DNA from: Albidovulum sediminicola | GTDB taxonomy: Bacteria > Pseudomonadota > Alphaproteobacteria > Rhodobacterales > Rhodobacteraceae | Assembly (NCBI RefSeq): GCF_025751575.1 | Contig: NZ_JAOWLA010000006.1 | Span: 62,001 to 126,000 of the forward strand | Direction: 5' to 3' | DNA length: 64,000 bases | In this document: positions 44,005 through 46,576 of the stretch, in pieces | Layout of the letters: each line of letters opens with the position of its first letter | How positions within the stretch are numbered: position 1 is the first letter of the stretch | Position numbers and translations under genes: made by a program | The notes under the pieces: model-generated | Seen by the model: only the letters and a program-made list of their open reading frames with translations | Database searches by the model: none | Told to the model about the DNA's origin: nothing

Positions 44005-44565
44005 TCAGGCGCCGCGTGCCAGGGCCGCGACCCCGGTGCGCGCGACGTCGGCCAGGCCCAGCGGGCGCATCAGGTCGGCAAAGGCGTCGATCTTTTCCGG
44101 GGTTCCGGTGATCTCGAAGACGAAGCTTTCCAGCGTGCTGTCGACGACGTTGGCGCGGAAGATCTCGGCCAGGCGCAGCGCCTCGATCCGCTTTTCGCCG
44201 GTGCCCACCACCTTGAAAAGCGACAGTTCCCGCTCGACCGAGGGCCCCTCGACCGTGAGGTCATGAACCTCATGCACGGGGACCAGGCGGCCAAGCTGCG
44301 CCTTGATCTGTTCGATCACGCCCGGCGTCCCGCGGGTGACGACGGTGATCCGCGACCGATGGCCCTTGTGATCGACCTCGGCCACGGTCAGGCTTTCGAT
44401 GTTGTAGCCCCGGCCCGAGAATAAGCCGATGACCCGCGCCAGCACCCCGGCCTCGTTATCGACCAGGACGGCCAGGGTATGGGTCTCGATCACCTCGGCG
44501 TTGGGGTCGCGCAGCTCATAGGCGGAGTGGCTCGTAGAGCCTTTCTTGATCTTCAGCGCCGACAT
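44005..44565 (-). CDS. ilvH: acetolactate synthase small (regulatory) subunit
   Basis: A 186-residue ACT-domain protein that activates the catalytic subunit and confers valine feedback. The ACT core is HTLAVLVDNEAGVLARVIGLFSGRGYNIESLTVA near residue 29-62. A second ACT-like C-terminal domain begins near LSLFKVVGTGEKRIEALRLAEIF. It follows ilvB on the same strand with 60 bases between, so the two are under the same attenuator. The start MSALKIKKGSTSHSAYELRD is usual for Rhodobacterales. Confidence 0.96.
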   Translation of the reverse strand: MSALKIKKGSTSHSAYELRDPNAEVIETHTLAVLVDNEAGVLARVIGLFSGRGYNIESLTVAEVDHKGHRSRITVVTRGTPGVIEQIKAQLGRLVPVHEVHDLTVEGPSVERELSLFKVVGTGEKRIEALRLAEIFRANVVDSTLESFVFEITGTPEKIDAFADLMRPLGLADVARTGVAALARGA

Positions 44566-44625: not shown

Positions 44626-46380
44626 TCAGACGAGAACGGCGCCACCGGCCTGGATCGCGCCCTCGGTCGAGGCGTCGCCCAGAAGCATCTCGTTGTGCGG
44701 TTTGCCCGACGGGATCATGGGGAAGCAGTTTTCGTGCTTCTCCACCAGAACGTCGAGGATGAACGGCCCGTCGTATTCGATCATCGCCATGATCGCGTCG
44801 TCGAGATCCTTGGGGCTGTCCACCTTGGCACCGGAGCAGCCGAAGGCCTCGGCCAGCTTCACGAAGTCGGGCAGGCTTTCGGACCAGCTGTGCGAATAGC
44901 GCTCTCCGTGCAGCAGCTGCTGCCACTGGCGCACCATGCCCAGGCGTTCGTTGTTCAGGATGAACTGCTTGACCGGTGCGCGGAACTGCACGGCAGTGCC
45001 CATCTCCTGCATGTTCATCAACCAGGACGCCTCGCCCGCGACGTTGATGACCAGCGCGTCGGGATGGGCGACCTGCACGCCGATCGAGGCCGGCAGGCCG
45101 TAACCCATAGTCCCGAGCCCGCCGGAGGTCATCCAGCGGTTGGGCGCGTCGAAGCCCAGGAATTGCGCGGCCCACATCTGGTGCTGGCCGACCTCGGTCG
45201 TGACGTAGCGGTCACGGCCCTTGGTCAGGGCTTCAAGCCGCTCCAGCGCGTACTGCGGCTTGATGACCGTGTCGGAGCCCCGGTAGGTCAGGCATTTCTT
45301 GGCCTTCCATTGATCGATCCGCGACCACCACTTCGCGAGACCTTCCTTGTTGGTCTTGCGGCCGCGCGACTTCCAGACCTTCAGGAGGTCCTCAAGCACA
45401 TGGCCGACGTCGCCGACGATGCCCAGATCGACATGGATGACCTTGTTGATCGAGGACGGGTCGATGTCGACATGCGCCTTTTTCGAGCGGGGGGAGAAGT
45501 CTGCGATGCGGCCCGTGATCCGGTCGTCGAAGCGCGCGCCGAGGTTGATCATCAGGTCGCAGTCATGCATGGCAAGGTTGGCCTCGTAGAGGCCATGCAT
45601 GCCGAGCATGCCGATCCAGTGCTTGCCGCTGGCGGGATAGGCGCCGAGCCCCATCAGGGTCGAGGTCACCGGGAACCCGGTTGCATCCGCCAGTTCGCGC
45701 AGCAGCTGGCTGGCGCCGGGGCCGGAGTTGATGATGCCGCCGCCGGTATAAAGGATCGGGCGCTCGGCCTTTTCCATCATCTCGACCAGCTCGGTGATCA
45801 GTTCGATGTCGCCCTTGACCCGCGGCTGGTAGTGGCTGACGCGCGCGGCCTTCGGCGCGACATAGGCGCCGGTCGCGAACTGCACATCCTTCGGAATGTC
45901 GACCAGCACCGGGCCGGGGCGACCCTGGGTCGCGACGTGGAAGGCCTGGTGGATTGTCTCGGCCAGCTTGTCGGTGTCCTTGACCAGCCAGTTGTGCTTG
46001 GTGCAGGGGCGGGTGATGCCGACGGTGTCGGCCTCCTGGAAGCCGTCGGTGCCGATCATGAAGGTCGGAACCTGGCCCGTCAGGACGACGATCGGGATCG
46101 AGTCCATGAGCGCGTCGGTCAGGCCCGTGACGGCGTTCGTCGCGCCGGGCCCGGAGGTGACCAGGACCACCCCCGGCTTGCCTGTCGAACGCGCGTAGCC
46201 CTCGGCCATGTGGACCGCGCCCTGTTCGTGCCGCACGAGGATGTGGCGAATGTCGTTCTGCTGGAAGATCTCGTCATAGATCGGTAGCACCGCGCCCCCG
46301 GGATACCCGAAGACCGTGTCCACCCCCTGATCCCTCAGCGCCTGAACTACCATTCTCGCGCCGGTCATCTGCCCTGACAT
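44626..46380 (-). CDS. ilvB: acetolactate synthase large (catalytic) subunit
   Basis: A 584-residue ThDP enzyme forming acetolactate or acetohydroxybutyrate in valine, leucine and isoleucine synthesis. The ThDP glutamate is in ILVRHEQGAVHMAEGYAR near residue 46. GDIELITELVEMME starts the FAD domain, and the ThDP/Mg motif is GGLGTMGYGLPASIGVQVAHPDALVINVAGEASWLMN near 420-456. ATG 46380 (MSGQMTGARMVVQAL) has GGAG six bases upstream; an in-frame ATG at 46392 is also possible. An attenuator with its own leader peptide and promoter lies immediately upstream. Confidence 0.96.
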   Translation of the reverse strand: MSGQMTGARMVVQALRDQGVDTVFGYPGGAVLPIYDEIFQQNDIRHILVRHEQGAVHMAEGYARSTGKPGVVLVTSGPGATNAVTGLTDALMDSIPIVVLTGQVPTFMIGTDGFQEADTVGITRPCTKHNWLVKDTDKLAETIHQAFHVATQGRPGPVLVDIPKDVQFATGAYVAPKAARVSHYQPRVKGDIELITELVEMMEKAERPILYTGGGIINSGPGASQLLRELADATGFPVTSTLMGLGAYPASGKHWIGMLGMHGLYEANLAMHDCDLMINLGARFDDRITGRIADFSPRSKKAHVDIDPSSINKVIHVDLGIVGDVGHVLEDLLKVWKSRGRKTNKEGLAKWWSRIDQWKAKKCLTYRGSDTVIKPQYALERLEALTKGRDRYVTTEVGQHQMWAAQFLGFDAPNRWMTSGGLGTMGYGLPASIGVQVAHPDALVINVAGEASWLMNMQEMGTAVQFRAPVKQFILNNERLGMVRQWQQLLHGERYSHSWSESLPDFVKLAEAFGCSGAKVDSPKDLDDAIMAMIEYDGPFILDVLVEKHENCFPMIPSGKPHNEMLLGDASTEGAIQAGGAVLV

Positions 46381-46413
46381 CTCTCGCTCCATCCGTGCAT
46401 CGTCTTTGGCAAC

Positions 46414-46482
46414 AAAAAGCCCCGGATCATCTTGACCGGGGCGCATGGGAACCATTCTGGCAACCGTCACCGGCCCATGCGC
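46414..46482 (-). promoter_or_regulatory. transcription attenuator of ilvBH
   Basis: On the minus strand, GCCCCGG (46442-46436) and CCGGGGC (46425-46419) form a terminator stem, lengthened by TCA/TGA across a one-base bulge. Five T follow (46418-46414), 34 bases before the ilvB start. A second 9-bp inverted repeat, GCGCATGGG (46482-46474, inside the leader peptide codons) and CCCATGCGC (46449-46441), overlaps the terminator stem by two bases. It is placed to compete with the terminator, like an antiterminator. Confidence 0.82.
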
Positions 46483-46514
46483 GTTCTTTCCACAAGTACG
46501 AGGATTGCGTGCAT
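46467..46514 (-). CDS. ilvBH leader peptide
   Basis: A 15-codon frame reads MHAILVLVERTRMGR then TGA. Codons 4-8 (46505-46491) specify Ile-Leu-Val-Leu-Val, exactly the end products of the downstream pathway. GAGGGGCG precedes the ATG. Ribosome stalling there for lack of charged branched-chain tRNAs would leave the 46482-46474 arm free to pair and so favour read-through into ilvB. The peptide itself presumably has no other role. Confidence 0.85.
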   Translation of the reverse strand: MHAILVLVERTRMGR

Positions 46515-46547
46515 CGCCCCTCGGGTCCTTTCGCTGCTGTGCGGCGG

Positions 46548-46576
46548 AATTTATTCAGGGTTGATTGCAGCGTCAA
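46548..46576 (-). promoter_or_regulatory. sigma-70-type promoter of ilvBH
   Basis: On the minus strand, TTGACG (46576-46571) and TAAATT (46553-46548) are separated by exactly 17 bases. Transcription would begin near 46541, about 27 bases before the leader peptide ATG. Confidence 0.8.

Follow-up and report, generated by a model that had tools for sequence, protein, structure and literature searches.

How is transcription of the branched-chain genes ilvBH of Albidovulum sediminicola controlled, and what part does the short region between them and their upstream neighbor, a calcium/sodium antiporter gene, play in it? We scrutinized this region in the window, i.e., the whole 64,000-nucleotide stretch of DNA analyzed, and in related genomes. 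A sequence-only reading had proposed branched-chain leader-peptide attenuation from a promoter, a 15-codon leader peptide, a 9-bp inverted repeat with one arm within the leader codons, and a GC-rich stem followed by five T. All of these are present (Table 1), and most relatives retain the leader frame, its Ile/Leu/Val run, and the stems. The list of parts was right, without P2, which holds the leader stop codon in its loop, the relation to the Rfam family Atu_C8, and a helix, P0, between the 5' end and bases past the terminator. The Shine-Dalgarno, described as good, is less clear-cut: a candidate exists, GAAAGGA, at 11 bases from the leader ATG, and GAGGGG is only 2 bases away. With a short ORF bearing an Ile/Leu/Val run, an intrinsic terminator before a branched-chain gene, and a covarying stem in the leader codons all present, we consider it highly likely that the region is a ribosome-mediated branched-chain leader-peptide transcription attenuator of ilvBH, probably turning on the genes for isoleucine, leucine, and valine synthesis when those amino acids run short.

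Layout and conservation of the leader region

Transcription probably starts at about 46541. An automated terminator scan with a loop limit of 8 missed the ilvB-leader terminator, whose loop is about 10. Folded as a single sequence, positions 46540-46410 gave a z of -1.95 against shuffles, with 9 of 200 equally stable; single-sequence folding alone would therefore not establish the structure, whereas comparison does. This modest value is what can be said for an ordinary terminator beside a short ORF without regulatory function, a chance arrangement that family conservation and covariation speak strongly against and that we regard as barely conceivable. The ilvB frame is also open from GTG 46470 through P1 and the terminator into ilvB (46470-46381, minus strand), probably by chance.

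Table 1. Features of the ilvBH leader region, in window coordinates
Feature	Position	Strand	Basis or remark
Sigma70-type promoter TTGACG-N17-TAAATT	46548..46576	minus	single promoter-like site; shuffles mean 0.2
Leader 5' UTR with probable Shine-Dalgarno GAAAGGA	46515..46541	minus	presumed start site
Leader ORF MHAILVLVERTRMGR	46467..46514 (ATG 46514, TGA 46469-46467)	minus	family-wide conservation
Control codons 4-8 of the leader, ATC CTC GTA CTT GTG	within 46467..46514	minus	
P1 5' arm GCGCATGGG, within leader codons 11-14	46474..46482	minus	covariation
P1 3' arm CCCATGCGC	46441..46449	minus	covariation
P2, CCG-GTGA-CGG, leader stop TGA inside GNRA-type tetraloop	46464..46473	minus	3/3 pairs with two-sided changes
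P3, small hairpin CCA-GAA-TGG	46452..46460	minus	conservation weak
Intrinsic terminator hairpin GCCCCGG...CCGGGGC	46419..46442 (arms 46442-46436 / 46425-46419)	minus	
Terminator U tract TTTTT	46414..46418	minus	
P0 5' strand CAGCGAAAGG	46527..46536	minus	covariation in relatives; 0.65-0.98 in readthrough fold
P0 3' strand: U tract flanked by the last terminator-stem base and GTTG	46410..46419	minus	covariation
ilvB, acetolactate synthase large subunit	44626..46380	minus	NF006581, TIGR00118
ilvH, acetolactate synthase small subunit	44005..44565	minus	TIGR00119

For comparison, a search for ilvB covered 22 genomes at genus level, 80 at family level, 61 at order level (every one from the same family), and 143 at class level, and the chosen cut-offs yielded the gene in 21, 79, 61, and 104 of them, respectively. 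DNA upstream was read for most matches, a few loci (e.g., those of G041 and G098) being left out. The resulting 140 same-family units are loci, not genomes, as G044 contributed two; a paralog (L002) and L082, from the same genome as L051, had been removed beforehand. The attenuator element passed a loose scan at 124 of the 140 loci and a strict scan at 119, with 16 failing the former and 5 more lost to stricter cut-offs, an N, or the lack of a U tract. False places, such as those at L027 and L118, are included among the 124, and the terminator stem was missing from one of the 119. TTGAC occurred within 110 bases upstream at every strict locus (119/119), with a best-scoring spacer of 17 in 102, and the -10 box ended 20-33 bases before the leader start in 108. 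A model of the element, R1, matched 36 of 41 family genomes and 35 of 40 genera, many of these genomes having supplied R1 sequences; in the genome of the window itself its one match was at ilvB. Within an alignment of P1 and P2 (72 sequences), 6 of 12 pairs were changed on both sides, a count reached in 0 of 500 shuffles, which ignore kinship, and slid controls gave 0 to 3 pairs. The arms of P1 are otherwise nearly invariant, such that swapping them between species costs only 0.15 kcal/mol. Frame and stems are thus kept in most relatives, in which neither the leader frameshifts nor the lack of stem covariation that the sequence-only reading had named as speaking against attenuation was found. 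On these comparisons, the region is under selection.

The consensus leader peptide of the family reads M-x-x, five Ile/Leu/Val residues, G-x-x-R-M-G-R, and stop. Among the 124 loci of the loose scan, codons 4-8, whose retention the earlier reading had proposed to check, encode Ile, Leu, or Val in 113, 119, 118, 110, and 108, respectively, so the run is kept in most relatives. The third base of codon 11 was G in 121 of 124, with a variable residue (W, R, T, K, M, and others), and this G forms the first pair of P1. The stop was TAA in 83, TGA in 34, and TAG in 6 of the 124, most commonly placed as GTAA, GTGA, or GTAG inside the P2 loop (CCG...CGG). Rare triplets are over-used across the 119 strict loci: 166 of the 289 Val codons in the leaders are GTA, 52 of the 185 Leu codons are CTA, and 60 of the 130 Ile codons are ATT, against 1.7%, 0.6%, and 5.5%, respectively, in seven genes of the window, a rough comparison since it sets the genes of one genome against 119 loci. 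Such rare codons at control positions fit a sensor of charged tRNA; the leader in the window itself holds just one of them (GTA).

Outside the strict set, four family loci kept the same layout with a differently spelled P1: GCGCATCG/CGATGCGC at L182, GCGCGGG/CCCGCGC at L027, and another P1 at L034 and L115. At L126, a locus of another family (G291), the leader MSLLIVPCAPNEGLA, 212 bases before the ilvB match, has a wholly different spelling, and a 10-pair P1 (UGCGCGCCGA/UCGGCGCGCA) encloses a hairpin whose loop holds the stop codon and is followed by a terminator. As these leaders lack RMG, it is the stem, and not the tripeptide, that is kept. Folding of L117 and L206 did not give distinct P1 and terminator helices, and no leader candidate was seen upstream of ilvB at L040, L189, and L191. 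No RMG-type leader was present within 320 bases upstream of 97 class-level ilvB loci, of which L126 has the respelled layout just described and L234 an Ile/Leu/Val leader and a terminator without such a P1. At L210, the leader MKTQCQNIVVVM, within the last 125 bases before the ilvB match, ends ahead of the stem, ACACTG/CAGTGT, which by eye seems to be placed after the stop codon.

The relation of P1 to the terminator

The sequence-only reading regarded P1 as an antiterminator and the two-base overlap of its arm with the terminator as an economical switching geometry. The overlap is real, at 46442-46441 in the window and in 118 of 119 strict family loci. Mutual exclusion is doubtful, as 69 of 70 Rhizobiales loci, among the matches listed, have a gap of 5-9 bases between the two helices, as do L034, L182, L115, L027, and L126 with 2-4 bases, and the helices largely coexist. 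P1 ends between -2 and +9 bases from the terminator across all sets, Rhizobiales loci being those among the matches listed. With the upstream part masked, the terminator core formed beside P1 with a probability of 0.93 in the family and 0.975 in the Rhizobiales (among the matches listed), whereas the two basal pairs of the terminator fell from a family mean of 0.97 to 0.70, and below 0.5 in 24 of 118 loci. Equilibrium folding of all 119 loci lowered the mean for these basal pairs from 0.97, with one ribosome at the stop codon and the next on the Shine-Dalgarno, to 0.43 with a stalled ribosome and the Shine-Dalgarno free. In the window, stalling reduced the basal pairs from 1.00 to 0.76 and the core from 1.00 to 0.92, such that the predicted effect on its terminator is small.

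A classical attenuator, in which P1 is the antiterminator and excludes the terminator through common bases, would be consistent with the shared bases and weakened basal pairs of the family, and according to the accessible text of Li et al. (PMC4824070), it is reportedly essential that a terminator hairpin close its last 2-3 pairs. We nevertheless judge it unlikely, given the loci without common bases and the persistence of the core beside P1; basal-pair competition may contribute. In 29 sequences from the Rhizobiales and 106 from the family, consensus folding under ribosome masks revealed no conserved alternative partner for either terminator arm; the alignment of the family was poor at the terminator, with only three pairs predicted there. 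Comparison with species-swapped pairs likewise gave little or no excess for leader codons against the terminator arms (the largest being family leader codons against the 3' arm, -7.79 vs. -7.48, sd 0.10) or for the 5' UTR against the terminator 5' arm, and no excess for the P1 5' arm against bases past the U tract.

We prefer a reading drawn from geometry, in which P1 would bring the stalled ribosome to the base of the terminator and thereby weaken it. From the last Ile/Leu/Val codon to the CGC downstream, the distance is 4 codons in 91 of the 119 family loci and 3 in 62 of the 70 Rhizobiales loci among the matches listed, and a ribosome stalled at that codon would therefore end about at the base of P1. 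As far as the accessible part of their paper goes, Li et al. argue that 10-15 free bases are needed between the ribosomal A site and the hairpin, and they measured about 90% termination when 28 bp separated a stop codon from the terminator downstream, vs. <10% when 5 bp did (PMC4824070). Such a tether would account for attenuators whose stem and terminator do not overlap.

A helix between the 5' end and the bases past the terminator

In the family, a stretch of about 16 bases at the very start of the transcript covaries with the 10 bases directly following the U tract (P0). The duplex energy of each locus was compared with that of pairs swapped between species, kinship being ignored, in a main sample of 59 family loci from 58 genomes, each of its own genus and one with two copies. 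Bases -24 to -8 before the leader paired with the 10 bases past the U tract at -5.90, vs. -4.32 (sd 0.21) when swapped (z -7.6, 0 of 1,000 permutations); without the second copy (58 loci, 58 genera), z was -6.9 (0/1,000), and 39 additional family loci, some of them from the same genera, gave -3.4 (0/1,000; controls -1.2 to +0.7). The stretch from -41 to -25, upstream of the presumed start, gave a z of 0.3, and other control segments ranged from -2.5 to +1.9 in the 59-locus test and from -2.1 to +1.1 in a second control set; the most extreme controls of the 59- and 58-locus tests reached -2.3 to -2.7. Weaker tests counted helices: 45 of 59 native loci against 37.5 (sd 3.2, maximum 44) when swapped, and helices of at least six Watson-Crick pairs in 10 of 59 against 3.5 (maximum 10). 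Within the genus of the window, outer P0 gave a z of -2.7, no more than controls (-2.2, +2.8), and full-length P0 a z of 0.0. No convincing equivalent was found in the Rhizobiales among the matches listed (z -2.2 to +3.1).

P0 is spelled CGCGCAC/GTGCGCG at L024, CGCAT/ATGCG at L098, CACAT/ATGTG at L180, and CGCCAGC/GTTGGCG at L186, and the helix extends into pairing of the Shine-Dalgarno with the U tract, often reaching the terminator 3' arm too. In the window, a fold of the readthrough RNA predicts ten pairs of it at 0.65-0.98, three of them G-U, whereas its inner part, CCC 46525-46523 with GGG 46422-46420, reached only 0.13; the terminator core was mostly intact in this readthrough fold (0.85 for a core pair). 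Family means for readthrough RNA without ribosomes were 0.59 for the U tract paired with the 5' UTR and 0.50 for the terminator core. P0 covers the ribosome-binding site of the leader, and its full form is possible only in readthrough RNA. Since the covarying bases lie beyond the terminator, this part of P0 cannot decide termination and can act only in readthrough RNA, where it would hide the leader Shine-Dalgarno, loosen the terminator, and pair the 5' end. A 5'-to-post-terminator helix of this type was not found described in the literature searched, which left subscription journals mostly outside its coverage.

P0 might instead be the antiterminator itself, with a stalled ribosome blocking re-initiation and leaving the leader Shine-Dalgarno free to capture the 3' arm of the terminator together with the U tract. 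In RNA ending at the U tract, pairing of the 5' region with the 3' arm did rise to 0.25 with a stalled ribosome and the Shine-Dalgarno free, vs. 0.00 with a ribosome at the stop and the Shine-Dalgarno occupied. The strongest covariation is, however, with bases past the U tract, which are untranscribed when termination is decided, and the 5' UTR against the 3' arm plus T alone was weak (z -2.0), leaving this alternative improbable.

We return to the tether and, tentatively, combine it with P0 in a two-stage attenuator, a possibility rather than an expectation as a whole, in which P1 tethers the stalled ribosome at the terminator instead of competing for its base and P0, in escaped transcripts only, then silences the leader ribosome-binding site, so that escaped and terminated transcripts would differ in translation and stability. 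Going by the conserved promoter and reading frame, RNA would start near 46541 and a ribosome would translate the 15-codon leader. With ample charged Ile, Leu, and Val tRNA, it would reach the stop codon in the P2 loop, keep P1 open, and let the terminator form, in agreement with equilibrium folding. In a shortage it would stall on codons 4-8, P1 and P2 would fold, and its leading edge would lie at the base of P1, which, by the geometry observed, would hold the front of the ribosome close to the terminator base, no more than a few bases away. The last closing pairs of the terminator would be taken or blocked via P1, and RNA polymerase would read on. Once it is past the terminator, the 5' end would pair with the U tract and the ten or so bases that follow it, where the covariation lies, and in many relatives with the terminator 3' arm as well. 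Leader initiation would then be off, the terminator base taken apart, and the 5' end of the ilvBH mRNA paired. If P0 is real, the leader does more than decide termination: escaped transcripts bear a helix that terminated ones cannot fully form, and the decision would be tied to leader translation and mRNA life, an arrangement that could be sought in other attenuators.

Rhizobiales homologs and known attenuators

At gathering scores, Rfam 15 identified nothing at the ilvB leader and only a tRNA in the whole window. Scored with cmscan, the leader reached 27.2 bits against RF02502 (Atu_C8), below its gathering cut-off of 50, and Atu_C8 had no match in the genome of the window at E 0.001 with stricter filters. 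Atu_C8 and the window element nonetheless share Ile/Leu/Val codons, the GCGCATGGG stem, a stop codon in the P2 loop, and a terminator in the same order, with P1 enclosing P2 and the terminator following in both. Atu_C8, filed as "Rhizobiales sRNA", differs in that P1 and the terminator do not overlap, the mRNA is probably leaderless, and no P0 was found. Scanning named genomes for the Rhizobiales-type P1 gave at least 119 stretches, from which 80 loci were taken and 10 without a leader or U tract were dropped, leaving the 70 among the matches listed; all 36 of these that were tested matched Atu_C8, with scores of 75-128 bits. The leaders resemble MKIATALIVVGKRMGRMV. In 58 of the 69 loci scored among the matches listed (L251-L329), 6-9 bases separate the end of the -10 box from the leader start, which is why the leader mRNA is probably leaderless. 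Matches to Atu_C8 occurred in 3 of 143 class-level genomes, one above the cut-off, and in 7 of 36 in the family of G230; Atu_C8 is therefore not general in the class.

The gene downstream of the 70 loci among the matches listed was an IlvB relative in 59, a relative of the L240 MFS protein in 9, and neither in 2. This arrangement suggests that Atu_C8 is a translated ilv leader attenuator and not a stand-alone sRNA. The terminated leader could still act mainly in trans, as an sRNA or functional peptide comparable to rnTrpL/peTrpL, with cis control of ilvB secondary: the homolog is filed in Rfam as an sRNA, and RNA and peptide of the Sinorhizobium meliloti trp attenuator act in trans according to the accessible parts of two papers (PMC7298713, PMC10117765). 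We hold this to be quite improbable, since 68 of the 70 homologs among the matches listed stand before ilvB or an MFS gene, and in the outliers P1 is respelled along with the end of the peptide, leaving no fixed seed and no fixed C-terminus in them.

A Val-rich leader precedes the MFS efflux-type gene at L240 (1501-1620), whose protein itself scores above the cut-off for TIGR00710 (Bcr/CflA), and the nine Rhizobiales loci with a leader before a tblastn relative of it are L259, L268, L276, L277, L278, L285, L298, L300, and L321. The four strongest R1 matches outside the family (L372-L375), from four other families, lie upstream of ORFs that look MFS-like by eye, not of ilvB, and have the same kind of leader; the weaker ones (L376-L382), partly inspected, were taken for chance. 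At L254 (1141-1260), an Atu_C8 element (99.8 bits) with the leader MKTALMVVIGRMGRMV stands before an ORF of 609 residues, which corresponds neither to ilvB nor to the MFS protein of L240. The comparison suggests that MFS efflux-type genes, too, come under branched-chain control of this kind, and such transporters may be inducible by a shortage of branched-chain amino acids. The literature searched, with subscription journals mostly outside its coverage, contained no paper on Atu_C8 with Agrobacterium nor, among the matches listed, one on a CflA leader or attenuator.

The kind of switch is already known, and the variation here is a stem that need not overlap the terminator, plus P0, for which no description was found. 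Attenuation of Caulobacter ilvBN was reportedly described by Tarleton in 1994. According to the accessible text of a later paper (PMC4117421), that attenuator has a leader with tandem Ile and Val codons and a rho-independent terminator; by description, then, it resembles the window in leader codons, terminator, and the genes controlled. Leader-peptide control before acetolactate synthase genes, as in the window, was also reported for alphaproteobacterial ilvB/ilvIH by Vitreschak 2004, known here from citing papers: in the parts accessible, Corbino 2005 (PMC1273637) cites it for an alphaproteobacterial ilvB leader peptide, and PMC2573895 lists from it an S. meliloti ilvIH cis-regulatory element. 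The ilvBN and ilvGMEDA attenuators of Escherichia coli similarly pair a branched-chain leader peptide with a terminator, and their peptides, as given in the accessible part of PMC6123439, are 32 residues long, compared with 15 in the window.
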